From assembly GCF_002234675.1 (NCBI RefSeq), contig NC_019876.2:28595196-28659195 (forward strand): a stretch of 64,000 nucleotides of DNA, written 5' to 3'. Below are positions 3,832 to 51,300 of the stretch, in pieces. A program made the translations under genes and the position numbers. This DNA comes from Oryzias latipes. Taxonomy: Eukaryota > Chordata > Actinopteri > Beloniformes > Adrianichthyidae. The number at the start of each line of letters is the position of its first letter. The stretch's first letter is position 1. The notes under the pieces are model-generated. The model saw only the letters and a program-made list of their open reading frames with translations. It searched no databases and was not told the origin of the DNA.

Positions 3832-3849
3832 CTTGTTGCCTGCTCCAAC

Positions 3850-5300: not shown

Positions 5301-5307
5301 TGTGAAG

Positions 5308-6150
5308 GCCATGTCACACAGCCGCTACGTACATTTTACACATATTTCCACATATGAAATATCCGTCTACATGGGTGATCTACGTCATTCATACGTGTTT
5401 CTTGCGTTCGTCGATGTGCTCAGGTGTCTGTCGAGGGTTTCAGCCGGCGGGTCTTTCAGTTCAAAATCTTTAGACGCTTGAGAATTACGCAGTTTATGTG
5501 TATTTTATGTAGTTTATACACAATCATTACGTAAATCGTATGCTATTGTGTGTTGTACTTGTGAGACACATACACAAATGTGTGTCTTTCCCCGACTGTT
5601 CCACGTTTGTCTAACAGACTTCACGTATACGGCGCACAGATCACATTACAATGACGTAATTGACGCATGAATCACTAATGAATTACAGATAAACATCACA
5701 ATAATCACACGGTTCATGTTCTACGCTGGTTTACATGTTCTTCTCGTGGTTTATTCCTACTTCTTCTGTGGTTTTAACCCTTGTGCTATCCTATAACCCC
5801 ACCGTTACATTGACGTGTTCTCCCTACCATGACAAAGGTGGATAAAGGTAAAGAGGATTTCATGTAATCCATGGACACCAGTGAAGATCACAAATCATTG
5901 AAGAAAAAAGGTTCAGAGCTCTGGATAGTGGGTCTAGATGACCCCACTCCCAACGGTAAAGTGCCTAGGATAGCACAAGGGTTACCGTGGTTCATTCCTG
6001 ATACATCTGTCAAAATTTCAGGTAAAGACCATAACTCTTCTCACTTTTTCATACTCAATTTTTAACGTAGATTCACGTATGACAAATTTTCATCAGTGCT
6101 ATTTGCACAAAAATGTATGTAGCGGGTGTGGGACACGGCCTTGAGGGCGA
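5308..6150 (+). mobile_element. MITE-A, copy 1 (with nested MITE-B)
   Basis: Non-coding element with terminal inverted repeats: the left end reads GTCACACAGCCGCTACGTAC and the right end, on the opposite strand, is closely similar (GTCCCACACCCGCTACATAC). The same internal blocks (TGATCTACGTCATTCATACG, GTTTGTCTAACAGACTTCA, ACGGTTCATGTTCTACG) recur at 24416-24805, 29162-31995, 42554-42685, 56118-56735 and 61697-62372. A 210-bp MITE-B interrupts it at 5774-5984. TTAA flanks at the 29162 copy suggest a piggyBac- or Kolobok-type parent; that class is inference. Confidence 0.8.
5774..5984 (+). mobile_element. MITE-B, copy 1, nested in MITE-A
   Basis: A 210-bp element bounded by AACCCTTGTGCTATC and its inverse GATAGCACAAGGGTTA. 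It sits at a TTAA (5774-5777) of MITE-A. MITE-A copies at 56600-56625 and (inverted) near 42593 and 61833 carry the same flanks with no insert, so the target was TTAA and was duplicated (the right copy now reads TTAC). Confidence 0.9.
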
Positions 6151-11125: not shown

Positions 11126-14100
11126 TTAACACTTTGCAGGAGTGCGGGGCGTGACTTGGTAGCAGAAGTAGCACACTCCCCTGAGCTGCCCGACCTCCTG
11201 AACCCCAACATCGTGATGCAGGGCTGCTGACTCCAGCCACAACAGTCTGGCGTCTGGATCCTCGTCTGAGAACTGCAGCAGAGACCCCGAACCCTGCAGC
11301 GCCCTGAAGCACTGCTGGAGCACCAGGACCGCCTTCCCCTTCCCCTCTTTGGACCTCAACAGAGCATCGGTGGTGCCTTTGTCCACGATCAGGTCCAGAC
11401 TGTTGGGACTGTAACGCCTGTCCAGCTGCGTGCAGTCCAGCTCTACGAACTGGAGCCGGGAAGAGGGGTTGCTGGGCCGGACCGCTTCTAGTCGAGTCTT
11501 TTCCTGCATCAGCTGCACAGCCACAGGTGAGATGTCCGCACAGGTGACGTGGACGGAGACGGGAGAGTGTCTGTAGATGGAGGGCCCCAATGCAGACGTG
11601 CCACAACCCATATCCAAGACCTGGACCGGAGAGTCCGGATGGGAACTGGACCGCAACAGAGGCATGAGGAAGTCCCGAACAGAGTCAAAACCGAAGAACC
11701 ACTCAAAGTTTTTGAAGGAGGAAGTCGTGCTGCTGCTCTCCGTGTAGAAGCGGTCCCAAGCTGACCTCTTATCCATGTTTTCCATCAAGTCAGCTAAAAA
11801 AAACACACAAGAGATTTTAATCATTTCACAACTCGGCAAAGGGCAAACCCTCAATGTGAATTCACTTTCTCAAATAATCAAGTCCTATCTGCGTCTGTCA
11901 CGTACTTCCGAAACCCTTGTGCTATCCTAGGCACTTTAACATTGGGAGTTGGGTCATCTAGACCCACTAGACAGTGCTCTGAACCTTTTTTCTTCAATGA
12001 TTTGTGATCTTCACTGGTGTCCATGGATTACATGAAATCTTTCCACCTTTCTCCACCTTTGTCATGGTAAGAAGAACACGTCAATGTAAGGGGGGGGTCA
12101 TCTAAGATAGCACAAGGGTTAAGGTCTGTAATTATGAAAATGCTTCAATCAGGAAGGTCTAATAAGGATTCCTTGTTTCTGAATACCTGTGAAACATGGA
12201 AGATGTGTTTGGGACAAAAAAAAAAGTATTTACATGAGTTCAGTGTTGCATTTTCAAAATAAGAACAACTAGGGTGCATGAACATTATCTTTGTGAAAAA
12301 AGGTTTTGTGCAATAATTTAAATCCCATCCACATGTTGGGTCAGGCAACAAGTCTACAACATTCAAAGTGTGGGAAAAATAAATCTAAACATCACACGAG
12401 AAAGAGAGCACATAGCAACACGCTTTTACTTTGAAAAACTGATTTACGTGTCTGAAAAACTTTTTATAGCTTTTCCGGTGCCTCTCAAAATTCGTGCAGG
12501 CAATGCAGCAATGTGTCTCATCTTTTTTTGGCCTCTTCTGCAAACAACACCCCCGTTTGTTTTAATGTAATAATGAACACATCATCCCAAGATCACAGAT
12601 ATAGCAGAGATTTAAAGAAAATTAAGCTTGAAATTGCCTTTATTCGTTGAGAATCAGGTGCAGACGGAAAAAAAGGCCATTTGAAAACTATTATATTTGT
12701 GACGTTGGAAATACGCTGGGCGGGGCCACAAGCTCCCAGCTCCGCCCCCATTCTGATCATCCACCTGCAGACAAATGGATCCATGAACGTCTTTGTTTTC
12801 CCGGTTTGAGCTGGAATCTGGATCTAAACTACGGCTGGACACAGCTGATATTGTCTGATGCTTTTATGCTACGCTAATGTTAGCTTGGGAGTTTGAGGGG
12901 CTGTAAGCGGCTGTAGCGGGAGAGACTGTAAAGAGAAGGATGATGGGAATTTGTAAACTTTTAACCTTAAACAGAAACACATCTTTTATAGCTTTACTTC
13001 TTATCTCAGTCTTTTTTTCTTTTGTTACAAATTTTCTCTCTCCTTTTTCTTTACTTTAGAAACTTGCGTTTGGTTTCCCCCAATAAAAGAATTAGCCATT
13101 TCAATTTTTAGTAAATATCTTCCTTGCTATATTTTACAATCATAAATACAAATTTTCTAACAAAGTTCCAAAAACATTTTTGGAGGCCAAACTATACATT
13201 AAAACAATTATTTTTTTAAATAACCGAAAAGCTGTCAAATGTCTTGACATTTGTTACAAACTATAATTTTTTTAAATGTTATCACCCTACTTTTATATAC
13301 TCGCTACATGTTTTTGTTTGTTTGTTTCTAGCCGTGGGACCTTGTTTTGATTATTTTACTTTTTTTGTATGTTTGTATTGACACATAGTAATAGTTTTGC
13401 ACTGAAAGTGACGTTTACAATAAAGCTAAAAATAAAATAAGAAATACAAGGACAGGTGATGGGAAGAGGGGTTGGGTTGCTGCGTGCCATTTATTTTGGC
13501 TAAACACAGTATCATCACAATTAATGACTATCGCCCAGTGGCCCTCACTCCAGTCATAATGAAGAGCTTTGAAAGGCTGATCCTCCCGCACATCAGGGAC
13601 CACCGTTCCACAGACCCCCACCAGATCACATACCGCAAAAACAGATCCACAGAGGACGCCGTAGCCGTGGCTGTCCACTCCACGCTGAACCACCTGGAGC
13701 AGCAGCGGAGCTACGTCTGGAGGCTCTTTGTGGATTACAGTTCTGCCTTCAACACAAGGACAGACTTTGCGACAAACTGCTTACTCTTGCCCCCCCCCCC
13801 CATGCAATTGGATTAACAACTTCCTCACAAACACCAGCAAAACCAGGGAGATCATCGTCGACTTCAGGAAGCATGGCGCCGACCCAGCCCCCCTCCATTT
13901 CAACGGGGAGGACGTGGAGAGGGTCCACACCAACAGGTTCCCCGGCATCATCATCTCGGCCGACTTCTCCTGGACAGCCAACAGCAAAAAGGCTCAGCAG
14001 CGTCTGCACTTCCTCAGGAAGAACAACATCAGCACCGACCTGCTGCCGACCTTCTACCATCATCCATCCAGATCTGCTCACAGAACCAAACTGTTCTGCA

Positions 14101-22000: not shown

Positions 22001-25000
22001 GTGAGCTTTTCATTTCTCTCAGAATTAAAACTCTCTGGGCTTGCATGCGCTCGCTTATGTTCAAATTTATCTGCAGATTAAACGCTTCAGAGAATACTCT
22101 CATCTTGGCTATAAGCAACATTAGATTTAGTCCCATATGTTTCCGGTCAAATTTATGGAAACACTGGAGGGACTGTCTTTTTATTTGTCATTGTAATTAA
22201 GGTTTTTATAGTGTGGTATGTATATGTAATCTTTTTATCTTTGTATTTATTCTTATCATTTTTAATCAATTTATTTTTATCAAGTATTTTTTATTAACGT
22301 TTTTATTAACTGTAACTATACACTGTACCTCAACTTGTGTATTCTTGACACTGTGTATTTGTTTTAAATGTAGTGGGTCTGTGTACTCCTTTTTACTGAT
22401 TGGAGCATGAGTCTGGAATAAATTCTATCTATCTATCTATCCATCCATCTATCTAAAATGTCGGTCCAGGTACTCCTTAGAAATCCGTCCCGGGTTTCTG
22501 GGGCCGTTGTTTCCTGTATCCAGTCCCTTTTACAGGGAGTCCGGTCCAACAGTCTTTCTTGTTTTAGAAGATAAGTTCAGTGTTTTCTTTGAAGAGTTTT
22601 TGTTTCTTGGTCCGGTTTGTTGTGCAGCAAATTGGATCCAGGTTTGGAGCAGATGTTTGGTGGATGCTGCATCCAATCGGGCTTCCACTGAAACGATGTC
22701 GGTCTTTCAGGTTGTGGAAGCGGGGTTGAGAGTTGGAGCCTCTTTCAGTTACCTCCTCTCTGACTCCCATATCCTCTGTCTTTGTCGTTTTAGGTCTCCT
22801 TTTTTCTACAACTGATGGCACTCTAATTAGAGGGCAGGCCTCTCCTCTCTGACCCGCACAGGTGAATTTTGTCAGGGCAATATGCAAACTGTCAGATCGG
22901 CAGGACATGGCGCGACCGTCACCTTTATTAACCCATTTCTGGAAAGACGTCCAGCAGCCAATTTGGAACTTGTCGTTTGGTGAGAACGCAGCACATCATG
23001 AACCCAATGAGACAGAACCGGTCCTTTAGAAAACACTAACCTCTGAAGCTCTTTGCTGTCTTCTAACAGGGATTCGAGGTGTGCAAAACCAAAGGCCCTG
23101 TAGAAACAGTTTCCGTCAGGCCGTGTCTTCCGAATATGAGAGTACTTTTTGTGGAGATCCTGCGACGACATCAAAGGGCGTAATTTTAAAATCTATGCGG
23201 CAGTTGGAACATTAGTAAACCGAATGTAAGGAGAGCGAAGACGGAGGCGGAGATGCGTGAGCCCACCGACCTTGATCTTGAGCTGATAAACCATGTCGTC
23301 CTCCGCATATTCTTTCTGCAGCACCGACAGCTCCTGTCTCTCCGACACCAGGGGGTTCGTGTTGGCGATCTGCACACTCACACAAACACACATCACAGTT
23401 TGTGTTTGCACTGAGAGACTCTCTGCAACTTTTACTACAGGTTTGGATTCACACAAATGCTTTTGTTCTACTGTATTTTTCCGCACCATCAAAGAATGGC
23501 CTATTTTAAAACTGTTAAAAACAGTCGCATAGAACAGAAATTGGTGTAGTGGCACCAATGGACCGGTACCGGGCCGCGGGACACTTGGCACCGGGACGCA
23601 CAGAAAGAAAAAATAATTTCCATTTTATTGCTTTTTTTCGAGAGAAAAAAACGTTTTATTTTGAAAAGTGACCGGATTCTCTCTGTTACATCCGTCACAC
23701 TTAACGCACGTCAAAGTCGCGACACCAAACATCACGTGATACACCCCGCTAAAATTAAACACAAAAAAACAAAATGAGCAAAAAAACAAACTTCTTTAGA
23801 AAGTTGCTTTGACAAGGGGAAACGGTCCAATGAAGGGACAGAAGAGGAACCTGCACCCCCTAAAAGAGGGAAATCTGCCTTTAATAGGCAGCGGTAAACG
23901 TGCCTCAAACCCCCCCCCCCGCGGTAAACGTGTCTTGCGTTGTACCGGTCCGCGGTAACAAAAAGGTTGGGGACCACTGCACTAGATGATGCTGCGCTAA
24001 AGGGAAGGTCAACGAAAAAGTCAGAAAAGTCAGTTTGTCAAACTTTACGAATAGAATACAAACCAACATTCTGACAGCTCGGTTCACTCCCAAAACAAGT
24101 TGGTGCAATCACGATACAGTAACTCTTGAAATAGTGGACAGCCAGAACAATAACTCAACGTTGTCCAGACGTTAATGTCCATATTCGTGTCTTGTCATAA
24201 AGGAAAGCACCAAGAAGGGCCGCCTCTAAATTCACTGATGTTCATGTCGCTAGCTAGTTGGGAAGTGTTTTCTCTGTTGTGGGAAGATTTCTCCGCTATC
24301 ACTTAAAAACTATCTAGAAGTTTTAAACAGCAATTCAGACTCCACGCTGACTATTATTATTATTATGACATCACCGATTTCCAGAAGCAAGAACCTCATA
24401 AATAAATATGAACAATTAAAGCCTGTGTCCCACAGCCACTATGTACATTGATATAGCCCGGATGAAAACTGGTCACTGGTGATATAAAAGTTATACAACG
24501 GTGGTTCATGCATAAAAAGTATGTTAGACATAAGATAAACAGTCGTTGAAAGACACAGATTTGTGTATGCATCTTGCGAAAATCAAGCACAATTATAGTT
24601 TATGTAATAATTGTGTGTACAACAGGCACAAACTGTATAATTCTCAAAATTTTAAACTCAAAACCAAATTCACGTAATGATCCATCAGCTGAAACCCTCG
24701 ACGGACACCTATGCATATCGACAAACGACGAAGGCGAGAAAGAACAACATTTCATACGAGGAAAATGCTCAAAAAGTACTCGGCTGTGTGACACGACCTT
24801 GAAAAAGATTTTAATCCACGGTGATGAAAACATGAACAGTTTATAAAAATAAAATTGAAACATTTTCTCTACAAACAAAGAAGCGTTGCACTGTAGTTTA
24901 CGTTGGCCAATCTTGTAACATCGATGCCTACTAATTTCTCGTAGAAAGAAATTCCAGGGCACTGAAATTTGGAACTGTACATTCGGAATCCCCCACCAAT

Positions 25001-28000
25001 AAAAAAAGTGGAACGCCCTATATAGTGCATCGAGTAGTGCTTCATGAAGGAATTTGGACACCATCTACATTTGCAAATATACACCACAATGCATTGTGGT
25101 TGAATGACTTTTCAAGTGAAAAAAAAAGGATCATTTTCACGATATCAAGCTGTGCAATACGCATATCGCGAAAGTCTGCAGAAATTGCGATTAATGGTTA
25201 CCTTAAACGTGCACAATGGCAGCTTGAAGTATTTAAAGAATCAAATAAATCCCTTCATGCGTTTGACAATCGATGGACGCATTCACGTTGTTGACCAATC
25301 GGATAGACACATTCACGTTGTTGACCAATCGGATAGACACATTCACGTTGTTGACCAATCGGATAGACACATTCACGTTGTTGACCAATTATTTGGACAA
25401 ATTCACGGTGTTGACCAATAGGATGGACGCATTCACGTTGTTGACCAATCATTCGGATGCATTCACGTTGTTGACCAATCATTTGGACGCATTCACGTTG
25501 TTGACCAAAAATTTGGACGCATCCACGTTGTTGACCAATCGGATGGACACATTCACGTTGTTGACCAAGCATTTGGACGCATTCACGTTGTTGACCAATC
25601 ATTGGCGCATTTACGTTGTTGACCAATCGGATGGACACATTCACGTTGTTGACCAAGCATTTGGACGCATTCACATTGTTGACCAATCGGATGGACACAT
25701 TCACGTTGTTGACCAAGCATTTGGACGCATTCACGTTGTTGACCAATCATTTGACGCATTCACGTTGTTGACCAATCATTGGACGCATTCACGTTGTTGA
25801 CCAATCGGATGGACGCATTCACGTTGTTGACCAATCGGATAGAAACATTCACGTTGTTGACCAATTATTTGGACAAATTCACGGTGTTGACCAATAGGAT
25901 GGACGCATTCACGTTGTTGACCAAGCATTTGGACGCATTCACGTTGTTGACCAATCATTGGACGCATTCACGTTGTTGACCAATCGGATGGACTCATTCA
26001 CGATGTTGACCAAGCATTTGGACGTATTCACGTTGTTGACCAATCGGATGGACACATTCACGGTGTTGACCAACTATTTGGACACATTCACGTTGTTGAC
26101 CAATCATTGGACGCATTCAGGTTGTTGACCAAGCATTTGGATGCATTCACGTTGTTAACCAATTATTTGGACAAATTCAGTGTTGACCAATCGGATGGAC
26201 ACATTCACGTTGTTGACCAATTATTTGGACAAATTCACAATGTTTACCAATCGGATGGACACATTCACGTTGTTGACCAATCATTGGACGCATTCACGTT
26301 GTTGACCAATCATTGGACGCATTCACGTTGTTGACCAATTATTTGGACAAATTCAGTGTTGACCAATCGGATGGACACATTCACGTTGTTGACCAATTAT
26401 TTGGACAAATTCACAGTGTTTACCAATCGGATGGACACATTCACGTTGTTGAACAATCATTGGACGCATTCACGTTGTTGACCAATCATTGGACGCATTC
26501 ACGTTGTTGACCAATTATTTGGACAAATTCACAGTGTTTACCAATCGGATGAACACATTCACGTTGTTGACCAATCATTGGACGCATTCACGTTGTTGAC
26601 CAATCATTGGATGCATTCACGTTGTTGACCAATTATTTGGACAAATTCAGTGTTGACCAATCGGATGGACACATTCACGTTGTTGACCAATTATTTGGAC
26701 AAATTCACAGTGTTTACCAATCGGATGGACACATTCACGTTGTTGACCAGTCATTGGACGCAGTCACGTTGTTGACCAATCATTGGACGCATTCACGTTG
26801 TTGACCAATTATTTGGACAAATTCACAGTGTTTACCAATCGGATGGACACATTCACGTTGTTGACCAAGCATTTGGATGCATTCACGTTGTTGACCAATC
26901 ATTTGGACAAATTCAGTGTTGACCAATCGGATGGACACATTCACGATGTTGACCAATTATTTGGACATATTCACAGTGTTGACAAATCGGATGGACACAT
27001 TCACGTTGTTGACCAATCATTGGACGCATTCAGGTTGTTGACCAATTATTTGGACGCATTCACGTTGTTGACCAATCGGATGGACACATTCACGTTGTTG
27101 ACCAAACATTTGGACGCATTCACGTTGTTGACCAATCATTGGACGCATTCACGTTTTTGACCAATCGGATGGACTCATTCACGATGTTGACCAAGCATTT
27201 GGACGCATTCACGTTGTTGACCAATCGGATGGACACATTCACGGTGTTGACCAACTATTTGGACACATTCACGTTGTTGACCAATCATTGGTGCATTCAG
27301 GTTGTTGACCAAGAATTTGGATGCATTCACGTTGTTGACCAATTATTTGGACAAATTCAGTGTTGACCAATCGGATGGACACATTCACGTTGTTGACCAA
27401 GCATTTGGACGCATTCACGTTGTTGACCAAGCATTTGGACGCATTCACGTTGTTGACCAATCATTGGATGCATTCACGTTGTTGACCAATCGGATGGACG
27501 CATTCACGTTGTTGACCAATCGGATGGACGCATTCACGTTGTTGACCAATCGGATGGACACATTCACGTTGTGGACCAAGCATTTGGACGCATTCACGTT
27601 GTTGACCAATCATTGGACGCATTCACGTTGTTGACCAATCGGATGGAGCCCTTTCATGTCAATTTCTGCCTCCTATGTAGATGAGTGTCATTTTAAGTAT
27701 AATGCATGTTGGCCCTTACTTAAATGAACTGTTGCAGTGGAATAGAAATAATGTTTTCGGTTGTTTTGCTATTTGTTCATGTATTGCAAGTTCCATCGTC
27801 AACGCAATATAGATCACTAAAATGGCAAATCTAGAGTTTTCCTCATTCCATTTAAAGATTTTCTTAAACTTCAACTCTCTGAAACGTGAAGATCCAGACG
27901 TGATCATCACAGACATCAGACCAGTACCGAGCTCAGCATCTGAGCCCGGTCCAGTGATGGGGTTTCCTCACCTCCTGCTGGATCCGGTCCTGCTGAGCGA

Positions 28001-28748
28001 TGATGGCCTCATCATGCGCGAGGCAGTTCACACCTGGAAGACACGAGCGCTTTTAGCTTTACCTGAGAGCAGCAGCAGCAGCCACAACAACAGCACCACA
28101 GAACTCTCTAGAACCTAGAGCCACTCCAAAGTACAAAGCAGATTCAAAGATCGTCTCTGCATCGTCCGCTGCACTGGTTGGGAAATAAAAACAAAGTCGG
28201 CGCGCGCGTTTTTGGGGGAAAAAAAACTCACGAAACGCGAGTCAAAGGGTAGCAGCACAGGATGCTGATGAGGGTTCAAAAACAAGTTGGATGTCGTCTG
28301 AACCCATCAGAACCGGTACCGCTGTCTGTCTGTCTCTGTGACAGACACAGACAGACAGACAGCTAAAGGGTTTAGCTCATGATGATGCTGCGTCAAAACA
28401 AAACTAATTATCAACGAAAAGACATCCGTCCTGCAGAGTCTGCATGGGTTCTGGCCTCCGACGGGTCCTCATCGAGCTCTGGCACTGGGGGAGGGGGGCT
28501 ATCGGTCGGCCGCTGCACTACAGCGTTTCCTTTGTGTGGCTCGGTTATCGTTAGCCGAGCAGCTGCGACCCGTTTACACTTCAGTCTACCGGAGCATCGG
28601 GCGGACATCATCCCGCTCGGAGCTCCGGTCACATCCGGTCCGGATGTTCGGCAGAACTGACAGGTCGGCACGCGGGGTTTTTCGTGCCACAGGGGCTCCT
28701 CTCACCCTCCATCTCTCCCTGTGATGATTCCTGCTGTTCCTCCGCCAT
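16069..28748 (-). CDS. otub1: Otubain 1, OTU-family deubiquitinase
   Basis: Seven coding exons on the minus strand: 28706-28748, 27972-28033, 23271-23369, 23041-23159, 19313-19397, 17831-18025 and 16069-16266; sizes 43, 62, 99, 119, 85, 195 and 198 nt sum to 266 codons plus stop (human OTUB1 is 271 aa). The protein starts MAEEQQESSQGEMEGVNCLA, continues NPLVSERQELSVL and RKTRPDGNCFYRAFGF with catalytic Asp83 and Cys86, then GFTEFTIEDFHNT, SDYVVVYLRLLTSGYLQRE, IEGGRSIKEFCQQ, and KESDHIHIIALAQAL, VEYMDRGEGG and YRPGHYDILYK with His260 at the C-terminus. OTUB1 cleaves Lys48-linked ubiquitin chains and, without catalysis, blocks Ubc13-type E2 enzymes; the N-terminal helix used for that is present. 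The start ATG has the context CTAAGATGGCG. Introns 2, 4, 5 and 6 are loaded with repeats, including a 2.4-kb minisatellite and a giant hairpin. The coding sequence is intact. Confidence 0.97.
16332..17812. mobile_element. Foldback-like element: long inverted repeat filling otub1 intron 6
   Basis: The left arm (about 16332-16790) and right arm (about 17345-17812) are inverted copies of each other. Matches include TTCATTGAACGAG (16349) with CTCGTTCAATGA (17782), GAGTGGATTCAGGAAC with its counterpart near 17750, GTCACTTGGGGGCGGTAACC (16506) with its inverse near 17605, and an ACTTTAGTTA...CAGAGCTAC block (16709) with its inverse near 17395-17425. The loop holds a SINE. The element leaves only about 65 bp to exon 7 and 20 bp to exon 6. 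Confidence 0.85.
16925..17327 (-). mobile_element. tRNA-headed SINE with perfect target duplication
   Basis: On the minus strand it begins GGGCTGCACGGTGGCGCAG, has a tRNA-like A box (TGGTTAGCGCTC) and B box (GGTTCAAGTCC), a body including ACATGCAAACTCC, and an (AATG)n tail (plus-strand CATT repeats at 16926-16941). Perfect 13-bp direct repeats TTAGTTACATAGG flank it at 16912-16924 and 17328-17340. Confidence 0.93.
18381..19165. mobile_element. hAT-like non-autonomous element in otub1 intron 5
   Basis: Ends CAGGGGTTCTCA and TGAGATCCCCTG are inverted repeats. Flanking octamers GTCTAAAG (18373-18380) and GTTTACAG (19166-19173) match at 6 of 8 bases, as expected of an aged 8-bp target duplication. 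'GGGCCAAATTTAG' and 'CGGGCCGCG' near the ends are typical of the family. No transposase. Confidence 0.7.
19510..19805. repeat. Dispersed repeat F, copy 1
   Basis: Matches 54045-54290: GATGATCACGATGTGTTAAA, GTTTTAAAGAA(A/G)CC(G/A)GC, and CACACCCAGCAGCCAATCA. In otub1 intron 4. Confidence 0.75.
20330..20640. repeat. Dispersed repeat H, copy 1
   Basis: Shares AATGCGGGAC(G/A)GC and TCTGAATGATG(C/T)CATGAATCC with 42930-43240. The stretch CTTCTCCCATCAGGGGTCGCCACA at its left is a common fish repeat motif. Confidence 0.5.
20662..21413. mobile_element. MITE with palindromic GCCGCG ends in otub1 intron 4
   Basis: Left end TAGCCGCGGTTACATGGGCA, right end TGCCCATGTAAACGCGGCTA; about 20-bp inverted repeats that read as TA-flanked. 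Internal sub-terminal repeats of CGATCGGA recur near both ends. No transposase frame. Confidence 0.8.
21690..22450 (+). mobile_element. LINE 3' fragment with TCTA tail
   Basis: A 165-aa open frame (21703-22200) carries the C-terminal RT tail of a Jockey-superfamily LINE: TNKIKYLGHVVSEDLSDDAD, KVTLFKAFCTPLYTAHLWAN, KLQVAYNDALRVLLNKPRR. A 3' UTR and GGAATAAATTCTATCTATC tail end the copy at about 22450. 5' truncated; in otub1 intron 4, opposite to the gene. Confidence 0.85.
23545..23985. mobile_element. hAT-like remnant in otub1 intron 2
   Basis: The left end TAGTGGCACCAATGGACCGG resembles, and the right end GGTTGGGGACCACTG equals, the ends of the hAT element at 29252-29862. Internal ATGAGCAAAAAAACAAACTT and GGACCGG/CCGGTCC parts also match. 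No clear target duplication. Confidence 0.65.
24260..25060. mobile_element. MITE-C, copy 1, in otub1 intron 2 (interrupted by MITE-A)
   Basis: Blocks such as AATTCAGACTCCACGCTGAC at the left, and TTCCAGGGCACTGAAATTTG plus GGAATTTGGACACC at the right, are shared with 31620-31890, 37375-37560 and 55367-55812. A MITE-A interrupts it at 24416-24805. Confidence 0.65.
24416..24805 (-). mobile_element. MITE-A, copy 2, nested in MITE-C
   Basis: Starts at TTAA (24416) then AGCCTGTGTCCCACAGCCAC and ends CGGCTGTGTGACACGACCTT; internal ACCCTCGACGGACACCT and CACGTAATGATCC match other copies on the opposite strand. Internally deleted relative to the 56-kb copy. Confidence 0.75.
25262..27650. repeat. 30-bp minisatellite, about 80 units, in otub1 intron 2
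   Basis: Tandem units of 28-31 bp with core CATTCACGTTGTTGACCAAT followed by variants CGGATGGA, CATTTGGA, CATTGGA or TATTTGGA. As most units are 30 bp, 10-residue repeats (TFTLLTNRMD on plus, GQQRECVHPI on minus) stay open for long runs in several frames; these are not genes. A higher-order period of about 176 bp is visible from 26158 to 26800. Confidence 0.97.
28321..28366. repeat. Short near-perfect hairpin in otub1 intron 1
   Basis: GCTGTCTGTCTGTCTCTGT is followed by ACAGACAGACAGACAGC as an inverted copy with a tiny loop. Made of simple (GTCT)/(AGAC) repeats. Confidence 0.7.
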
Positions 28749-29251: not shown

Positions 29252-29862
29252 CAGTGGTCCCCAACCGTATTCATGCCACGGACCGGTATGACATCACACA
29301 AACTTTCACGGACCGGTATTTCAAGTATAGGCGGATGATTATTGTAGCAATACTAGGATGAGGGAGGATCAAATACGTGACAAGACGAACTCTGTGCTTT
29401 TAGTTTGACTCGCTTAAAAGTTGACATCGCACAGGTCTCATCATCATCTCCCCTTCCCACACTCTCGTGGTGCAAAAAAAGGTACTGTCTATTAAATTTA
29501 GCTTTCTTATTTTGGAAGTTGAAGGCTCTTCTTCTTTCTCCTGGCTGGGCATTTTCCCCTCGGCAAAGAAACTTTCCAAAGACATTTTGTTTTTTACTCA
29601 TTTTGCTAGTTCCTGGATTTTATTTTAGCGGTAACTTAACACGTGACCGAGAAGAGCGCCTTGGAATGCGTCAAAAATGACATAGACTGATGTACCAAAG
29701 AATTGGGCAATTTTTCAAAATAAAACATCTTTCAGATTCCGAAATAAATAAAACAGAAGTAATGCAAGTTATATATTCTTTCTCTGCAGCCCGGTACCAA
29801 ATGACCCCAAATGACCCCCGGAGCGGGCAGATATCCGGGAGCCCGGGGGTTGGGGACCACTG
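29252..29862 (-). mobile_element. hAT non-autonomous element with perfect 8-bp target duplication
   Basis: Ends CAGTGGTCCCCAACC and GGTTGGGGACCACTG are perfect inverted repeats; ATCTACGT flanks both sides (29244-29251 and 29863-29870), and that octamer is the uninterrupted MITE-A sequence. Minus-strand frames beginning MSKKQ and MSLESFFAEGKMPSQ look like the N-terminus of a hAT transposase, frameshifted, with the rest deleted. Confidence 0.93.
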
Positions 29863-30356
29863 ATCTACGTCATTCATAAATGTTTCTTGCGTTTGTCGAT
29901 GTGTTCAGATGTCCCTCGAGGGTTTCAGACGACGGGTTTTAACGTGAATTCAGTTTTGTTCTGTTAAAAATTTTTGGTCGGTTGAGAATTACGCAATTTA
30001 CGTAGTTTATACGCAATTATTACATAAATCTTCTGCAATTACGTGTGATTTTTGTGAGATACACAAATGTGTGTCTTTCCAGGAGCGTTCCACGTTTGTC
30101 TAACAGACTTTTCATGCATGAACCACTGATGTGTAACTTTTAGATCACGTACACGGCGCACAGATCACGTTCAGATGACATCATTGATGCCTGAATCACT
30201 AATGAACTGCATGTAATTAGCGCAATAATCATTAACGGTTCATGTTCCACGTTGGGTTACGTCTTCTTTGTGTGGATTATACTTTTTTTTCGTGTTTTTT
30301 AACATGTTTATTCATGATAAATCTGTGAAAATTTCACGTAAAGACCACGGCTCTGT

Positions 30357-30965
30357 CCGATTTCCCACCCTAACCCCTAACCAGTGGCGGTTCTACCCTG
30401 AATTACTCCCCGGGCGAGACCCTCCTCTGCCCCCCCCCCCCCCCCCCCCCCCATTAGAGTCACTTTGTCCATTTATTGTAACTGAAACTAAGAAATTGAT
30501 ATAAAAAAAAAGATGTTTATCAGAATTCTGCACTGCATTATAACAGTTATAGGAACATAAAAATTAAAAGACTATCAGCATGGCAAAAATACCGTTAGGA
30601 AATATTTAATCAAACACAAATAAATAATCTAAAATAAATATTATAAACTACAAATCACACTAATAACACACTAGAATAAATGTAACTGCAGCACTAAGAA
30701 CAGAAAACACTAACTAAAACCTAACCTTTGTGGCCTTCCTTGATGCAAGTTTGTCAATAATAAATCATATAAAATCTGCTTCCCTACTGAATGATTGATA
30801 CTAACAACAGCAGGTTAGTGAGTTGCTCCTGAGACTTTGGTGATCTCAGGTATGACTTGATCAACTGGAGTTTTGAAAAGCTAACAGCTGCAGCAGCTGC
30901 AGCATCAGCAGCATCAGCAGCAGCAGCAGCAGCTGCAGCAGCATCAGCAGCAGCATCAGCAGCAT

Positions 30966-31025
<60 letters not shown>

Positions 31026-31893
31026 GCTACCATCACAGCTCATTTAACATTATGAACTAATATACAACAGTAAAACACAACAAAAACTTTGTGACACAGC
31101 AGACAGACACACGAATCATAACTAATGTTACAAGTTAAGGCAGAGCAAACATTTAAGAAGAAAATCTTAAAAATGACGTTATTTAAAATATTTGGGCCTA
31201 CTTCAGTTTTGGTCATGATAGACCAAACAAGAGATTTTTCCTCTGCAACGTTGTTGTTGTTGTAGGGCAGGTAGCATTCAAATTTAGAAAACGTGCATCT
31301 AGCTATGCTATATTACCCTTTTCTTTGTCTCTTTTCTCCTCTTTTTCTTTTCTTTTCTTTCTAAATTGGGCACCAGCTTTGACCTTTTTTCTCCATATTT
31401 CAGATGTTTTTGCATTTAGCATAAATGTCCTCACAAAAGCATCAAGTCTGTCGACTAAACCAACTGTCACCTTAGTGAAAACATTGTTTTATTTTCCCAT
31501 TTTTTATTTGGGCATTTCACACAAAAATAACCAAAAAAGCATGATTTTTTATACCTGTTTTATACCCGCACTACTTTTAAAATGGCAAATAGGATGTCAT
31601 CCATTTCAAGAAGTTAAAATCTAATAAATATGAGCGTTTTGCGACGATTATTTATGAGCCCAGAGTCTTCTAAAGATATAAACGTTGATGGTTTATTAAA
31701 AATTATAAAAATTGATCCGTTCAATGCATTGAGGGTTATATTCGTCAATCTAGTGAGCATCAATGCACGCTGGTTTTTCGTAGAGACTTCTGGGACATTT
31801 CTAGAGCACTGGATTTTGGAATTGTAGATTCGGACAGAACTACAAAATGGGGAACGCGCTAAATAGTGAGTAGAGAAGGAATTCGGACACAAC
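30357..31893. mobile_element. MITE-C, copy 2, nested in MITE-A and carrying extra insertions
   Basis: The left end GTCCGATTTCCCACCCTAAC and right end GGAATTCGGACACAACCCAC are inverted copies; the right part (31620-31890) matches 55560-55810. From 30383 a CAGTGGCGGTTCTACCCTG start and a C run (about 30431-30452) suggest another hAT-like element inside it, whose right end I could not locate. Confidence 0.65.
30887..31024. repeat. (CAG)n trinucleotide tract
   Basis: About 138 bp of CAG/GCA units with CAT and CTG interruptions. Open frames for poly-Ala/Ser (plus) and poly-Leu (minus) are produced by it. No gene context. Confidence 0.95.
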
Positions 31894-32485
31894 CCACAAC
31901 CCCTCTCACTGTTTCCACATCTATTCACGCATGACCAATTTTCATCCGTGTAAAATGTGCAAAATGTACATATTAGCTTTATGACACGGCCTTAAAGCTG
32001 AATTTCTCAAGACGCTACACAAAAGGTGGGAAACAGGAAACCAAGCTAAAGTAATTCTGATAAACAGTGAAAAGGTTTTGTTTGCTTAAACGCACTTATT
32101 TTCTTTAAACAAACAGTTATTCCCGTAGTAAACCCATCTACGAAACCATCGTTTAATAATGGTGACACTATTTATCTGTGCAGTCTGAGACATACCCGCT
32201 CACCTGAAATCAAGATTCTTCTTTTAACTTTTTCCTTCTGTTTTTTTTTTTATTAGGCTGCTTCAGGTAAAACTAAAACAATCTTTTTCTTTTAATCTGT
32301 TGTTTTCAAATGACTCTTTTCCTAAAAAAGGTAATTTTGGGTTTAAAAAGAGACAACTATCATCACTCAAACATGTTCTACCCAAATCTCTGGCGTCCAC
32401 CTGAACGCTAGCGTTTCTTTTTGCATTGAGCTCTGAGTTTATCCGGAGGGCATCTCAGCAGATGTCCCTCCCAACTGGATCCATA

Positions 32486-34116: not shown

Positions 34117-34340
34117 TTAACCATTGTGCTATCTTATGGGGTCAAAATGACCCCCCCCCTTACATTGATGTGTTTTCCCTACCATGACAAAGGTGGATAA
34201 AGGTGGAGAGGATTTCATGTAATCCATGGACACCAGTGAAGATCACAAATCATTCAAGAAAAAAGGTTCAGAGCACTGTCTAGTGGGTCTAGATGACCCC
34301 ACTCCCAATGTTTAAGTGCCTAGGATAGCACAAGGGTTAA
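34117..34340 (+). mobile_element. MITE-B, copy 3
   Basis: TTAA at 34117-34120 and 34337-34340 flank CCATTGTGCTATC and GATAGCACAAGGG. Intact target duplication. Confidence 0.92.
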
Positions 34341-35028
34341 AAGCGCCTGATAATCAGCTATGATCTCCACTCAGAGACAATGTGGACGTTCTTTTTCTTA
34401 TTGTATTTTACACTTTTTATGTGTCAACTTCTTTTCTTACATATCATTTAGAGATGGCAACAAAAGTTAAAAAAAGAACACTTTCAAAAACAGAAAATTT
34501 AAATATTTTTAAGTAGAAAATATTTTCCAACACCTAGATGTCCCTTGAAAAAGCTGAATAAAAAATACAAGTAGTTTAGGGCAGTATATTCCTGTTCACG
34601 TGATTTAAATGTAGAAGTTTACAGCAAGCGTTTAGTAATGACTAATATGTATTTTTTCATGTAAACCCAGATTTATTGTTGAAGAAAGGTTTCCTTTTTC
34701 TTTATTTTATTACTGGTCTTCAAAGAAAAAATTTACAGTAATTTTCTGCATAATATTAATATGAGGGTTCAAAGAATTGGTTGGCCCTCACACATTTTCA
34801 CCTCCTCTATTCTGGCCCCCTGCAAAAAGTTTGGACCCCCCTGGTTCAAGGCTTCTGACTGTTCTGGCTGTGCTCACTAGGGGGCACTGTTTCCAACAAA
34901 TGTGGTGCATCTGTTAGACTCTGAATCCAGATCTACCACCCTGCCAGTGTCTCAGCTCTCCCTGCACTGCCTGCTGCTGGTTACCTGGACCAGGTGTGTT
35001 TCTTCAATCAGAATTTGGAGGCACGTGA
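34341..35028. other. Intergenic DNA with a worn hAT-like end
   Basis: GGCCCTCACACATTTTC...GACCCCCCTGGTT (34785-34845) resembles the end of a hAT remnant like that at 39200; the rest is AT-rich with nothing recognised. Confidence 0.35.
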
Positions 35029-35242
35029 TTAACCCTTGTGCTATCTTAGATGACCCCCCCCCTTCCATTGACGTGTCCCCCCTACCATGACAAAGGTGGA
35101 TAAAGGTGGAAAGATTTCATGTAATCCATGGACACCAGTGAAGATCACAAATCATTGAAGAAAAAAGGTTCAGAGCTCTGTCTAGTGGGTCTAGATGACC
35201 CAACTCCCAATGTTAAAGTGCCTAGGATAGAACAAGGGTTAC
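35029..35242 (+). mobile_element. MITE-B, copy 4
   Basis: TTAA at 35029-35032, then CCCTTGTGCTATC; ends AACAAGGGTTAC. Complete length. Confidence 0.9.
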
Positions 35243-35261
35243 ATGTTTACATAAAACCTTA

Positions 35262-35440
35262 TTAGCCCTTGTGCTATCCTAGGCACTTTAACATTTTATA
35301 ATTTTTCTTCAATGATTTGTGATCTTCACTGGTGTCCATGGATTACATGAAATCTTTCCACCTTTATCCACCTTTGTCATGGTAGGGGGGACACGTCAAT
35401 GGAAGGGGGGGGGGGTCATCTAAGATAACACAAGGGTTAA
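35262..35440 (-). mobile_element. MITE-B, copy 5, internally deleted
   Basis: Starts TTAGCCCTTGTGCTATCC, ends CACAAGGGTTAA (TTAA 35437-35440), and lacks about 35 bp of the middle. Opposite orientation to copy 4, only 20 bp away. Confidence 0.9.
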
Positions 35441-36353: not shown

Positions 36354-39300
36354 CTATGAGCTGTGAGCGTCAGACACGTGGAAACTGTTGGTCACACTGT
36401 CCTGGTCGTCAGGATGCTCTTGGCTGGCCGGACCCCCCAGGCCCTCATCAACGTCCTCCTCATCCACAATACGCGTGTAGTCGTAGCTCATCGGAGGGTT
36501 CTGGAGGTTTTGCAGGACGCTGCCCTGTCGTGATCCTGCATCCGATGGGATAACGGCGCCGCCGTTCAGATGCCTGAAGCCATCAGGTGGAGGTCCCACA
36601 GTATAGGTGGGTGGGATGTGAGGATGGTAGTAATGGGCCTTTTGCTGCAATGAAACGAAGCAAACCCCGCTCACACATGGTCTAGTTTTCACAGGAAAGC
36701 TTGAGATCTAGCATTCCTCGGCCGCGTGAAGTCAAGCACGGGCATGCCCGAACAACAAGTCAAACGTGATGCACTTACCGCGTGAACCGAGCTTCTCACA
36801 TATTCTTCCACTCGGCACATGCTCTCATCTCTGTGCACATAGCGCTCCCCTCTGGGGATGGCCGGCCTGCCCAAGGAGTCAAACGCAGAGATGGTGGACA
36901 TGCTTTCACGGCAACGGGCCTGCCCCTGCACCCACAAGAACGCACACAGGCAACTGTTAGCCCAGTTATATGTTTCTTCTTTCCCTTTAAAGACCGCGTT
37001 TCTACAGCAAAGGTGACTCTGAGGAAGTTAACAGATGTTTGGTTGTTTATGTTCATCTGTCCTGTACTGGGATGATGGACGACACCCAGAACATTCAGGA
37101 ATCCTACTTTAAACCAGAGAAACAACTTTTCCTGTTTCACAAAAGCTTCAGATTCAGTAGAACAATACTGCCAGCTGATAAAAGAGCTCAGTGGCCTTGT
37201 GGTAGAGTGACCGCCCTGTGACAGGAAGGTCGTAAGTTCAAATCCAGGCCGAGTCATGGTCATGGTCATCAATCCAATCCCTTCAGCATGATGGGGTTGG
37301 ATTGGGGGGGTTAAACCCCTGCTCTCCCAGGGGAGGAGTCAGATGTCACACATCTAGAAAATGGGACATTTGACTCAAAAAAACGTTGCATTGTGGTCTA
37401 TCTTGGCCAATCTTGTGAGCATCAATGCATACTAGTTTCTCAAAGGGAGAAATTTCCAGGGCATTGAAATTTGGAACCGTACAGTTGGACCCCCCCCCTC
37501 CCCAAAATAAAAAACACAAACACCATAGAGAGTGCACTAAGTAGGGAGATAATGATTTTGGTTAAATGACTGATTTGGTTAAATATCACATGAAAAAAAA
37601 AATGCATTTTTAAACCATCCAACTTATGAGCACACAGTAGATTCACTAATAGTCTTTGTGAAATGATCGTGTTTATTGGGTTTTAAACTTCGTAAAATCA
37701 GTGACATCATATCTGCCATTGAAAAATGGGTCTGAATTTTTGTAACCCTTGTGCTATCCTAGGCACTTTACCATTGGGAGTTGGGTCATCTAGACCCACT
37801 AGACAGTGCTCTGAACCTTTTTTCTTCAATGATTTGTGATCTTCACTGGTGTCCATGGATTACATGAAATCTTTCCACCTTTATCCACCTTTGTCATGGT
37901 AGGGAGAACACCTCAATGGAAGGGGGGGGGTCATAGGATAGCACAAGGGTTAAACACTTGATAGTCCAGCACTAGATAGTTTTTTAGTAGATGGCGATTA
38001 GGGAGGGAATTCGGACGGAGCTATCGGCTTCCTTATATCTGTGCTCAGCGGTGGAAAAGAAAAAAAAACAATCTTATGGCAGATTGAAGTGTTTAATGAA
38101 TCAAATAAATCAATTTATACATTTGACCAATCGGATGGATGCCTTCATGTTGTTGAACAATGGGATGGAGCCTTGACTTTTTAAATTTAACTTATAAAAA
38201 CATTTAAGGAAGATCTGAGTGAGTTTACTCTCAGAATGGTGACCGTTTAGGCCAGGGGGGCTCAAACGTTTTTGGCGTGCAAGCTACTTTTGAGGTGACA
38301 AGCCTCCAAAGATGACAACTTCCAAAGTATTTCTAGAATACAAGGCTAGACTAAGCGTCTAGACTAGAATTATGCACCAAAGTCCCTTTATTCAATTTCA
38401 ACTTTTACTATGTCTTTAGTCAGAAATACTATGTTTATGTTCTAATAACTCAAAAACTACACGGTAAAAGTACACAAATCTTTGTGAGGAGATATCTTTG
38501 TCATGTGAATGAACAGATAATGGTATTATTTAGAGAACAGAAAGCAGCAACAATCACGTTTCATGCTCTGCTGCAAACCGTGTTATTGGGGGGGCGGGTT
38601 GACATTTCACTTCTGAGCCAACGGCAGCCCCTGCTCCGTGGGCGCATGCTTGAGGACACTGGACAGCCGGCCCGCGGGCCCATTTGACCCGGCCCCCTGA
38701 ACAATACCAGAGAGAGACTCATGGAAGCATGGAAAACAGAATCCCTGATACCGTTTCCTCACGTCAATAAAGCTTTCCCATAAAGATTTCCCCATTGTGG
38801 GAAAAATAAACGTATGTAATCTTTATTTGTATTGAAATGTGAGCGAGGCTGAACATTTTGCTACTCCAACCTCACTCACAGTCATAGGACGTGAAGCCGT
38901 GCGGGGCGGGGCATATTAGAGCATGACACTTAAATAAGATAAAATCAATCAATCAAAATCAGTCCTGACTTTTTATGTAAAGAACCCAGAGAGGGTTTTA
39001 TGTTTTTAACTGATTTCATAAAGAGTCTTATTATATATTTGCTGATTATTTTAATTTTTCTTTTTTTTTTTGGTGAAGAACCCAGAGAGGATTATTTGAA
39101 TTCAGATTGGGTTATTAATATTTGGGTATATGAGGCCTTTAGTTTACATTTAGGCCCCCCTCCGACTGACTACCATTTCTGTTTCAAACTGACCCTGGCC
39201 CCCGACCAGAGGATGGAAACGTCATGTGGCCCTCGCTGGAAAAATGTTGGGGACCCCTGGTGTAAATATTAGCATGTGTGCAGATTTGAAAAAAATCACA

Positions 39301-42300: not shown

Positions 42301-45300
42301 TCGCAGACAGGCCAGCAACTGCAAAAGGAGCCCACTGCCGCCACCGGCAGAGATGATGGAGACCAAACCTTTCAGTTCTTTACCTCCACCTGAGTCTCCC
42401 CCTTTCCCTGTTCTCCCCAACATTGACAATAATTGGGGACTCCATAATTAAGAACGTCCACTCCGTTAACACAGTAACTTATTGTTTCCCCAGAGCTACT
42501 GTTGTTCTGGAGAAAGTCTCCGAGTTCATTTGCTCTTTTCCTTTTTCCAGTTAAGGCCGTACGATTTGTGTATAGATGTATCACCAATGAACCACGTTAA
42601 AACCACAGAAGAAGCACGAATAAACCTCGCAAAGAACACGTAACCCAACGTAGAACATGAACCGTGTGATTATTGCGTACTATGCAGTGTCCTCATTTGG
42701 AAGTGGTCATGAGAATCAAAAAGGACATCATCCTTTCCCTTTTCTGGGATCTGCCTTCTGACGTACATACTGTTGATCGAAAGGCGGGAACACCCTGGAC
42801 ACTCTCTCAGGGCAGATGGATCCAGATCACCCCGCCGGGTCCCGAGAGGCGAGCCGGCGGCCGGACAGAGACCCGCCGCGGGAGTTCCAGCCTGCTCGGC
42901 CTTCTGAACTTTATGATAGTTTTCTTATTTTCTTCAGGCCATAATAAAAACGGATCCCCTGACTTTAGTCTGGCTTTTTATTTTTACCCTCTCTGGCTAA
43001 TGCGGGACAGCAAGCCTTCAAACTCGGTCAGAAAGAGAACACAAATGCGGAGAACACACTGAAATGATTTCTTATTCCATTTGTTCTCTTTTATGATGTA
43101 TAATGTAATGTAAAAAAAACTCCAAAAATGTGACAGAAAATAACCTCTGAATGATGTCATGAATCCAGACGTGATCTCCGATTCTTTTGCGGAGCATAAA
43201 ATAAACCAACCTGACCTCTAAACGTGACCCGTGTCCTCTAGGCAGTGACTGGAAACGAGGCATAAAGGCAGAGCCTCCATGAAGTCATGAGGCTAAAATC
43301 GTTCAACATTATCTTCTCTCACACGCGTCTGTAGCATGAAGTGTATGAAGAGTTTTTTGAACAAGGGTTGAGCATTTGCTGCGAGTCGAAAAGGAGGCGT
43401 GAATGTGACACGTGTGAGCGCAGCATCACGCCAGGCTTGGTGGATTTGTTCAGAAGCGTTGCTCATTTCTCCCATAAGTCCCACTTCCATAGGATTTTAT
43501 TCTTCTTTATTACGCATTTTTTGGCTGCTCCGACTTATACTCTGAAGCGACTCATAGTGCGAAGAGCACAGTATGTTAAGAAACAGGGAAAAAACTTTAC
43601 CTTTCAAAGTAACCTCCACCTGAGCCTTTGCCTCCCCCACTGTGTTTGCCGCCGTACACTGGTATGTGCCTTCATGCATGGAGGACATGGGCTCCACAAA
43701 CTCAAGTCTTCCATCAGGATGTGGCTTTGCACCCATTGGCAGCTGTCCACCCATTCTGCAGGTAGAGAAAACACATGCAGCGCTTGCTTAACAGCGGCAA
43801 CAGCAAAGATTCTGCTGGAATAAAACACCTGGATGTATAACCATTCTGTCCTTTTTTCACAGAACTTTTCCCATCTAAAGACAATTTTCTGCAACTTCTC
43901 ACTACCATTCTTTTATAGAGCAGAGATTGTTGCACTGCTCTGTGAGACACACAAAAACATGGTCTTTAAAGAAAAAAGGTACAAGACTAATAGATCCATG
44001 TATTTGTTGGTGCTGTACCATTGGCCACAGTGACAAACCACAAATTACAGTCAGTAATTGGTAAATAATTTGATCACTGACAAAAGTGGGAAGGTTTCCA
44101 TTCAGAAGAGAAGCACAAAGTGAGATGGAGCACGAACATGGAGAGGAAGCTGCTAGACCGCCAGAAGTAACAGAAATGCCCGCTGCAATGATTTTTTCTT
44201 CTGGAAAACAGTAAGAAAGAAGCAAAAGTTAGCTCTTGTTTAGCTTTTTTAATCAAATTGTAAACACAGCCATTCAAAAATATATGCTGTGCTTAATCAA
44301 GACCATATGTCATCAACATGTAGACGCCTTTCAGACCTCCCCACTCAAAACGCTCGCGTTCTGACGTCTCTACACAAGTTTTAAAGTCAATTTTCCGACT
44401 CTACATACCTAAACGGGCGGCCACTTAACTCGCATCAAAGGTTAAAATAGTTGAACTTTGACCAGTCAGGTACTCGGATTTGGTAGTGACGTATGGACGG
44501 AGTCCTTTTCAAAACACAAAGTGTCAACCGTTTGAAAATTGATCACGGAGGAGAAATCCATTTCAGCGGTTTGTGTCCAGCTGGAATTCTACAAAACCAA
44601 GTCTTTCATTTATCGAGCTGTGAAAGCAGAGGCCTGGAGGGAAATTCACCAGATTTGTTCCGCCTCCACATTTCCAGCTGTGAGTACGCGCGTTAGTATC
44701 GACAGCGACAGTCCGGTGTGAACACTGAATGCTTAAAGTGCATTAAAAAAAAAACACGTTTAGCATTTTCTTGAACACGCTTTAAATGTCCGCTGTGTCG
44801 GTGACGGGTGTGATTTTTGTTCAGTTTATTTCTGGGCTCCTTCTGTTGGACTGTACGCCGTGAGCAAGAATTCCAAGTCACTTGAACTCCTCAGTGATGA
44901 GCAGCAGGTGCGCACCTGGTGGTTCTCATAAGAGCACCATGTGCACAACCAGAGAGACTTCCAGAAGGGGGGAGCAGAGCCAGAATGGGAGAGGGAACCC
45001 GGACGGGGGTCACCCGCCTCCTGGAGCCATGCCCGATTGGGAGCAGCTTGATCATTCCTGGAGAACACTGGAGGATTTGGGAGCGATCCACCTTCCAGAT
45101 CTGTGCCAAACCAGGAGGCGTGAGGACCGGACGGCCTGTCCCCCGGCGTTGTGACAGCCAAAGTGAGGACGGGCCGCCAGCCGAGGACTGCAGGCTGGAG
45201 GGGATCCGCGTTGGTACGGAGAGTACTCCTTTGAGAGTACAGAACCGTGAAAGAGGGAGTGGCCTGAATTGGCAGAGGGGTGTGGTCATGAGACACCCCT

Positions 45301-48300: not shown

Positions 48301-51300
48301 CTCGGCTGGCCTGATGTGCAAAAACAACAAGATGAGCTCTAGAGATTGAGTGTCAAAATAAACAAATAGCTTCTTTTTGTTTCCGGGTTTGGTCTTTTGA
48401 TAAAACAGTGTTGACATTTGTGTTTACATATTGGCTTTTCTGCCTCTAAAGGTCATCCATTTGTGTCACGATCAGGGAAACGGACCAATCAGGGGGTCGA
48501 CTCCTTCGGTCTGTGAAAGCTCGCCTCACCTCTGGTGTGAACACGACAAGCAAAACAGCCTCTTGGGGGTATTGCAAACGAACCCTGGGGTGGTTTTGAC
48601 TGCTTTCAGGTTAGAATAGCCCCTCAGACTGGAACTACATTGATCCAACGGCACTCATTTGGTGGCAGCGCTGACCATCATGAAAAAAGCACGCAGAAGA
48701 AAAACCAGCAAATCCCACTGATACCTGTTCTATGATGTGATAACAGGCTCCTACACTTCCCCATTACTTCCTGTTTACCTAAAACCAGTTTAAAGCTGTT
48801 GGTCTGTCTTGGCAGGCCCACAGTTTTGTCAAAAACAGTCGTGACATTTAACAAACGAGGGCTAAATTCGCTTTTTGTTTTTAATTCAAGGAGTCAGCCA
48901 GAAGAGCTTAGGCATGAGTCCCAACTGCCCTAACAGGTGGGAATGGGGGGTCTGTAAGTTAAAAGGTCAAAACTGTAAAGGCTACAGAGGTCCAAACAAA
49001 ATCTCAAGGTCATAGACCATTCAATCCGTCCCCCCCAAGTGCTGTTGCATGACATGATAGACGTGCACTCCTGGCGTGCATTTTGACTTTGAAATGAAGA
49101 TATTAGTGTGGATATCCTACAGGGTCTTAAGTACAACGTGCTCCCCTTACCAACAACAAGTGTGGCGTAAGGTCACCACACGACCAGTACGTCATAAGTG
49201 CGTGTAACTTCAATTATCTCTACAAATACTTGGAGACATATAGGCACCCACGACAATGGTACGTTCCATTTTCATGACGTCACTTAAGGTGGCTGTGCGA
49301 GTCTAAAGGAAACTGCAAGACTCACTTGCTCTCCCCCCCTTAGGATGCAGCTGCCCCTCTATATGACCCTCCATGGACCCTTACAAGCCAAAAACGCACT
49401 GCACTCAAATGGGGCAACCGCCTTACGGGTCAACCGCCATACGGGTCGACCGCCATACGGGTCAACCGAGGTACGGGTCAACCGCCGTGGGGGTCAACCG
49501 CCATACGGGTCGACCGCCATACGGGTCAACCGAGGTACGGGTCAACCGCCGTGCGGGTCAACCGCCGTACAGTTCGACCGCCATACGGGTCAACCGAGGT
49601 ACGGGTCAACCGCCGTACGGGTTGACCGTCTTGCGGGTCAACCGCCGTGTGGGTCAACCGATCTGCAGGTCAACCACCTTACGGGTCGACCGCCGTACAT
49701 GTGGACCACCTTACGGGTCAACCGCCGTGTGGGTCAACTGATGTGCGGGTCAACCGATGTACGGGTCAACCTCCTTACGGGTCAACCGGCGTACAGGTCA
49801 ACCGCTGTACAGGTCAACCGCCGTACGGGTAAACCACTTTATGGGTCAACCGCCGTACGGGCCAACACCCTCACGGGTCAACCGACGTAGGGGTCCATGT
49901 GGTTTAAGCTGCTTTCACAGAGAACATGAATCACGCTTCAAGGGTGTCCAGCTTCAATGTTAAGTCAGTGTTCAGACCTGATTAGAGACACAAGGTCTGT
50001 CTCCCGATCATTGTAAATGAGATTTTCAGTCAATACTTCCATGTAGCGATCAGGCTAACAACCTTTGGCGGTAGCGTCTGGACTCTCGAGTTTATGACCA
50101 CATTTTTTGACAAGCAAATTTGACACGCATATGCCGTTTGGTTTGAACACACCTATCATCTTTAAACATAAACAGCAGGATGGTCTCTTTGTGAATCTGT
50201 AGCTTGATCTACTGTATGACTTACAATCCCTCCAAAACCTTCCAGTGTGTAAGCCTGTGGACTACCGTCAGTGTTTCCTTTCAGACACAAAGCAAAGCAA
50301 ACCATCAGCAGTTCTTGATATGAGATGAATCCATTGCAATTGATTTTCTAAAAAGGTCAACAGCAGTGTAACGGTAAAGCTAAACGCTCGACATCCAAAC
50401 AGACAGAAAGAGACGGACAAGCAGTCAGAAAATGCTCCGTTAGAGACAGCGCTGAGAGAGTTTGTACCTGGTCCAGGTGACATTTTGGGGTTTCGGGTTC
50501 CCCCCGCTCAAACAATTCAGAGCGACGTTTTTCATTCCAATAAGCCATGAATTGTTGTATCCCGTCACCTCTGCATGTGGAACGACTGGAAGAAGGAACA
50601 GAAACATGAGAGCTCTCTTTAGGGAGACGACAACAGACCAGGTGGTGTTTACTAAAAGAAAAGTCCAAGAAATCCGTTATTATGTTTGAATTTAAGGCCC
50701 TGGAGGTAAAGGAAAACCTTTCTGAGGAATACTCACAGTGCACCACCAGGTTGTTTTTAATCCTTTTTGGGGCCGAAAAGGCCGGATGCCACACCAGGCA
50801 GTCCAGTTTCTCCCCGTTCATGCTCTTCTTTGCGGAAAGGGAAAACTGAATGGAGACCACTCCACCACTGAAGCTGCGATTGTCCGAACTCCCCAGCAGC
50901 TCGGTGTCCCAGGAAAGTCGAGGAGCCGGATGTCCGGAAGAGCGGCATGAGGCGGCTTTCTGGGAAGGTTGTCCCTCCACCAGAATGAAGGGATCAAGGG
51001 AGGTGATGGGAATGGCTGGAGGAGAATTTCAGATGATTTGAGATTCAGACAGCTGACACTAAAACCATCTCAACTTCATTCTGTCTTATTGTTCGTTTGG
51101 TAAACGTGGATTGGAAACAGAGTTCTGCCTCAAGTCGCTGTCAAGATACTAGAGAATGGATTTGGTGACCAATGGGTTTGCCACCAAACCCTACCTTTCT
51201 GACAATGGGAAAATGGGCAGGGCTAAGACAGTTGGTGATTGGAGCACGCCCAATTGTTGGCATGTCAGCCTAAAGGCCACGTTCACATTCCAGTGAGCTT

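Follow-up and report, generated by a model that had tools for sequence, protein, structure and literature searches.

Background

Minisatellites are tandem arrays of units of about 10–100 bp that extend over at most a few kilobases. Passages of PMC3389668, PMC6947457 and PMC9659126 describe the birth of such arrays in transposable elements, where short direct repeats serve as the substrate of slippage or unequal exchange; the direct repeats of that model are 5–10 bp long, and 5–20 bp were counted in the relevant part of PMC3389668. For the Helitron central tandem repeats (DINE-TR1), a section of PMC6947457 derives a satellite from repeats inside the element. Homotypic tandem arrays with dozens of sites, one of them a repressed IFNB1 enhancer, are described in parts of a 2026 paper on MORC3 (PMC13373173).

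The array analysed here lies in intron 2 of otub1 in medaka, in a stretch of 64 kb (the window). It is alike to the Alu-derived minisatellites of human and the B1- and MaLR-derived minisatellites of mouse, as portrayed in excerpts of the above sources, in lying within repeated sequence, in its presumed birth from a short direct repeat, and in its presumed growth through slippage, conversion or unequal exchange. It differs in that the host segment has been assigned to no named element, and in that its direct repeat of 17 bp is longer than the 5–10 bp of the model, while within the 5–20 bp counted in PMC3389668. DINE-TR1 is similar in that a satellite arose there from tandem repeats within an element, but the right flank is unshared at the two loci considered here. 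By its sequence features, the array is a further putative case of the known route to minisatellites born in transposable elements. We read it as an ordinary minisatellite that has grown within a repeated composite DNA segment in otub1 intron 2 (probability about 0.72).

The array and its gene

otub1 is encoded on the minus strand. A translated exon fragment matched OTUB1 in the Protein Data Bank with an E value of 9.8e-28, and for three joined exon fragments the E value was 6.4e-37 with OTUB1 by itself and 6.7e-44 with a UBE2D2–OTUB1 fusion chain in the same database. Exon 2 (GVNCLAHDEAIIAQQDRIQQE) was placed on the minus strand at 27972–28033, with the donor GTGAGG from 27971 and the 5' edge set from TTCCAG; the exon after intron 2 starts at 23369, preceded by AG, and intron 2 spans 23370–27971 on the same strand, about 4.6 kb (about 4,602 bp). 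The start-codon exon (MAEEQQESSQ) is at 28748, and the numbering of the intron is valid provided that otub1 has no additional upstream exon. At 30885–31024, about 2.1 kb upstream of the start codon, CAG is repeated about 47 times in tandem (88% matches).

Tandem Repeats Finder reported the array at 25274–27640 with a period of 30, 79.9 copies, 82% matches and a score of 2942. Cutting into units at the TTGACCAA anchor placed the minisatellite at 25263–27650, assigned to the strand of otub1 (minus), with the first unit at 25263 and 80 units of about 30 bp followed by a partial last unit, the GGATGGAGCC of which has its final base at 27650. The two methods agree with the roughly 80 units of a 30-bp motif in the original prediction, which also had the array filling the intron; it does not, as it occupies 2,388 of the approximately 4,602 bp (52%). 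In this one assembled sequence, the dimensions (about 30 bp × 80, 2.4 kb) are those of a minisatellite. The plus-strand unit consensus is TTGACCAATCRKWTGGACRCATTCACGTTG. Among the 80 units, 56 are 30 bp, 16 are 29 bp and 8 are 28 bp long, and 40 distinct unit sequences occur. Within the unit, CCAA is conserved at 97–100%, the T of CCAAT at 80% and ATTCA at 99–100%. The observed/expected ratio of CpG is 1.16 in the array versus 0.60 outside.

A coding function was rejected, with 20–50 stops in every one of the six frames and a longest stop-free stretch of 177 codons; stops in all frames are expected because 24 of the 80 units are 28–29 bp long. Growth driven by hairpins received no support from folding of three array stretches as single-stranded DNA, one of them on both strands (z −1.0 to +2.0). 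A 20-base unit pattern gave no match in genome_contigs/viral_contigs, which hold prokaryotes and viruses and hence lend the result little weight, and one search of a collection of open-access papers for the letters of the unit gave no hit.

A short copy with a shared left flank

A related copy, referred to below as the seed, lies on the plus strand at 38076–38172 and carries two partial units, with GGATGGA at 38133 and 38163 (spacing 30 bp). The original prediction had placed a copy of about 1.7 units near 38085–38185, and its existence was borne out: 25216–25299, at the left edge of the array, aligned to 38076–38161 with 83.7% identity (E 5e-17), and a query of 25201–25275 found the short copy with an E value of 1.9e-12. 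By eye, the short copy contains an imperfect direct repeat of 17 bp (15/17 identical) with a 30-bp spacing, which is the type of substrate required by slippage or unequal exchange.

Both flanks had been predicted to be shared, with alignment between the two loci as the check, and this held for the left side and failed for the right. The left flank of the array (25216–25262, plus strand, about 47 bp) is common to 38076–38122; aligned without any unit it scored 62, which was reached by none of 300 shuffles (maximum 33). At the other end, 27602–27650 matched 38123–38172 at the level of the unit through GCC (E 1.6e-9). The GGATGGA part of GGATGGAGCC is unit sequence, and the right-side sequence shared beyond the unit is GCC only. 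Past GCC, the observed score was reached by 32/300 shuffles with flanks of 350 bp and by 218/300 with flanks of 100 bp. The array and the short copy nevertheless terminate at the identical unit phase (GGATGGAGCC). The unexpanded relative sought for a minisatellite derived from a transposable element is thus present as left flank and seed at 38076–38172, with the right flank unshared. Since the left surroundings are homologous and the terminal unit phase is identical, probably either one locus grew or the other shrank within a segment of common ancestry.

An upstream block common to both loci

The homology between the two loci is longer than had been predicted. Upstream of the array, a block termed F (24876–25069, plus strand) matches a block at the second locus (37376–37544, plus strand) over 24876–25037, with order and orientation kept (75.7% identity, E 4e-24). 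Two further copies of the F family lie on the plus strand at 31581–31889 and 55365–55808, giving four in the window; neither has an adjoining seed. The copy at 55365–55808 is MITE-like with 26-nt inverted ends (88% complementary). Inverted ends were found at this one of the four F loci, and aligning that pair gave a score of 52.5, just under the best shuffle (53.0); the ends of the 31 kb and otub1 copies gave alignment scores below the shuffle means. No element ends were found around the seed.

The second locus is interrupted between F and the seed by a MITE-like insertion at 37742–37954 with 19-nt perfect inverted ends. With the ends of F set by eye, the distance from F to the seed is approximately 156–158 bp at the otub1 locus versus 60 bp at the second locus, and the stretch between them gave a marginal score of 71.5 between the loci (300 shuffles: mean 46.2, s.d. 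6.4, maximum 71). The by-eye ends, near 25060 and 38016, fall ahead of the seed at both loci, which disfavours the seed as part of F. The second-locus end of F scored 45 against the 55 kb copy and 34 against the 31 kb copy (maxima of 200 shuffles 37.5 and 32.5, respectively), and 27.5 against the otub1 copy, below the maximum of 38 in 200 shuffles. The seed seems to lie outside F. Because a second matching block (F) stands upstream of both seed copies in unchanged order, the two loci probably have a longer composite segment in common. A tRNA-derived SINE head was looked for and not found, with no tRNA genes in the window (ARAGORN, bacterial code).

The label 'dispersed' in the original prediction is based on two seed copies within the 64-kb window, and it stands unproven next to the alternative of a duplicated composite segment. 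According to that alternative, the two loci, about 12.5–12.9 kb apart from start to start, would be one segment duplicated long ago and carrying a remnant of F with the seed. F and the seed occur in identical order and orientation at both loci, and the other two F copies are seedless; moreover, gap-free identity between the F copies of the otub1 and 37 kb loci is 82.3%, higher than the 74.7–77.1% of their cross pairs with the 31 and 55 kb copies, which are 85.3% identical to one another. Against this, homology outside these two parts is at best marginal, identity is only 76–84%, and F itself forms a four-copy family in the window. We regard the old duplication as possible yet somewhat improbable; it concerns the mode by which the segment was copied, as opposed to two insertions of a dispersed repeat, and is compatible with growth of the array.

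Other repeats in the window

The repeat adjoining the F block of the otub1 locus upstream is one copy of a second repeat family, the five longer copies of which (5305–5778, 24479–24727, 29861–30344, 56126–56733 and 61701–62360) are 67–83% alike over matches of at least 200 bp; extra pieces lie at 31904–32003 and 42574–42677. The MITE-like element of about 213 bp found between F and the seed at 37742–37954 occurs in six copies, five full and one partial, with the ends TAACCCTTGTGCTATCCTA and 85–96% likeness, the others being at 5773–5985, 11912–12122, 34117–34339, 35022–35243 and 35302–35440; a 45-bp piece is present at 60446–60491.

An inverted repeat at 2284–4380 has arms of 409 bp (2284–2692 and 3972–4380, 98.8% alike) that enclose a 32-bp minisatellite (2799–3422), a run of TA and an AC-rich stretch. 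In appearance it is a foldback element of recent origin that contains tandem repeats, and no target-site duplication was seen by eye in its short flanks. A second tandem array, with a 16-bp unit of consensus GGGTCAACCGCCGTAC in about 30 units, lies at 49411–49895, and an inverted pair (57809–58010 and 59231–59431, 96% alike) has an additional partial copy at the window end (63917–64000).

Internal history of the array

Block runs were defined as stretches of five or more units that differ by no more than two edits per unit, at lags of 1–59 units. Eleven such runs were found, at lags of 4 to 57 units; the longest comprises 11 units at lag 40, the block at 25887 recurring at 27068, followed by runs of 10 units at lag 16 and of 8 units at both lag 10 and lag 6. 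When the order of the units was permuted 500 times, 1.2 runs arose on average and never more than 7, with no run above 8 units, so that the run count and the two longest runs are above every permutation. At least one run of five or more units was contained in 335/500 permutations, and lone short runs may therefore be chance. The mean distance between units was low at lags 10 and 40 (z −2.9 and −3.1) and high at lags 20, 26, 36 and 41 (z 2.6–3.1), with 49 lags tested. The array has diversified by copying of blocks of 5–11 units.

The units nearest to the seed (edit distance 3) start at 25797, 27482 and 27512. Mean seed distance is 7.1–7.3 in the middle ten-unit groups (fourth to sixth) versus 5.9 and 5.7 in the groups at the two ends, and the trend with depth in the array is weak (Spearman 0.20, p 0.07). 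Full units of the type of the short copy (a0) account for 5/80, at 25411, 25797, 25887, 27482 and 27512, and sit close to both array edges, with some deeper inside. The linker of the short copy has the GGAT form only; other linker forms, with A at unit column 11, are carried by 50/80 array units and are absent from the short copy.

We favour growth from a two-unit seed as the simpler and the best reading: the short copy has solely the GGAT linker, and a0 units lie near both edges and also inside. The ancestral state would have been two units, to which slippage or unequal exchange over the 17-bp direct repeat may have added others; unequal exchange or conversion would afterwards have spread blocks of units, in an array presumably without a dedicated function. 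Contraction would reverse this order, in that a long array was ancestral and the copy at 38076 was cut to about 1.7 units by exchange between the first and last units. The GGATGGA/GATGGA form of the short copy is found at or near the array edges (25263, 27482, 27512 and the last partial unit), and because the edge units resemble the short copy, a deletion from edge to edge would give the identical product. Contraction, however, requires an additional long state at the 38076 locus, of which there is no trace, and the column-11 A forms are missing from the short copy; we consider it unlikely. For growth from a two-unit seed as originally predicted, the two states and the homologous left surroundings are established, while the direction, the timing after arrival in otub1 and the dispersed-repeat host are presumed.

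CCAAT sites

The unit contains GACCAATC, which is similar to RRCCAATSR, a sequence that we take to be the NF-Y consensus. The array (2,388 bp) has 41 RRCCAATSR sites on the plus strand and none on the other, that is, the dozens of sites for one factor that characterize a homotypic cluster, against at most 4 on the plus strand per equal window outside the array and a mean of 0.1 in the shuffled array (300 single-base shuffles). CCAAT is missing from 20/81 units, the partial last unit included. Palindromes of CCAATNATTGG number 15 in the array and 0 elsewhere in the window; these palindromic double CCAAT boxes are absent from the seed.

The array might accordingly be a regulatory element, a putative homotypic CCAAT cluster bound by NF-Y and influencing otub1 or its neighbours. 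The concentration of the sites on one strand, the palindromes confined to the array and the raised CpG ratio speak for this, and in human cells homotypic arrays of dozens of sites can act as repressed enhancers, as stated in sections of PMC13373173. The putative resemblance to the MORC3-repressed IFNB1-MRE, as presented there, is that a single factor-like site recurs tens of times in tandem; the site is CCAAT here and PU.1/SPI, AP-1 or SP/KLF there. However, besides the IFNB1 array only one is placed near activated genes in those sections, a single site in a founder unit yields many copies without selection, and conservation does not favour CCAAT, the T of which is less conserved than ATTCA. 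A single founder site that was copied accounts for the CCAAT cluster, and a regulatory role appears very unlikely. It would be a long shot to regard the locus, by analogy, as a counterpart of the PU.1 tandem-repeat enhancers, in which a seed with one CCAAT would have expanded into a strand-uniform NF-Y-like cluster of 41 sites inside otub1, its near-unexpanded state being preserved about 12.9 kb away. Growth, duplication and regulation are not mutually exclusive.

Implications

The long array and its near-unexpanded relative, both within one 64-kb stretch, offer a natural before-and-after pair for the beginnings of minisatellites. If further copies with 1–3 units exist in the genome, the earliest steps of growth would become directly countable. 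NF-Y binding to the CCAAT cluster, if it occurs, would show how an expansion without selection is able to assemble a large set of regulatory sites within a single gene.
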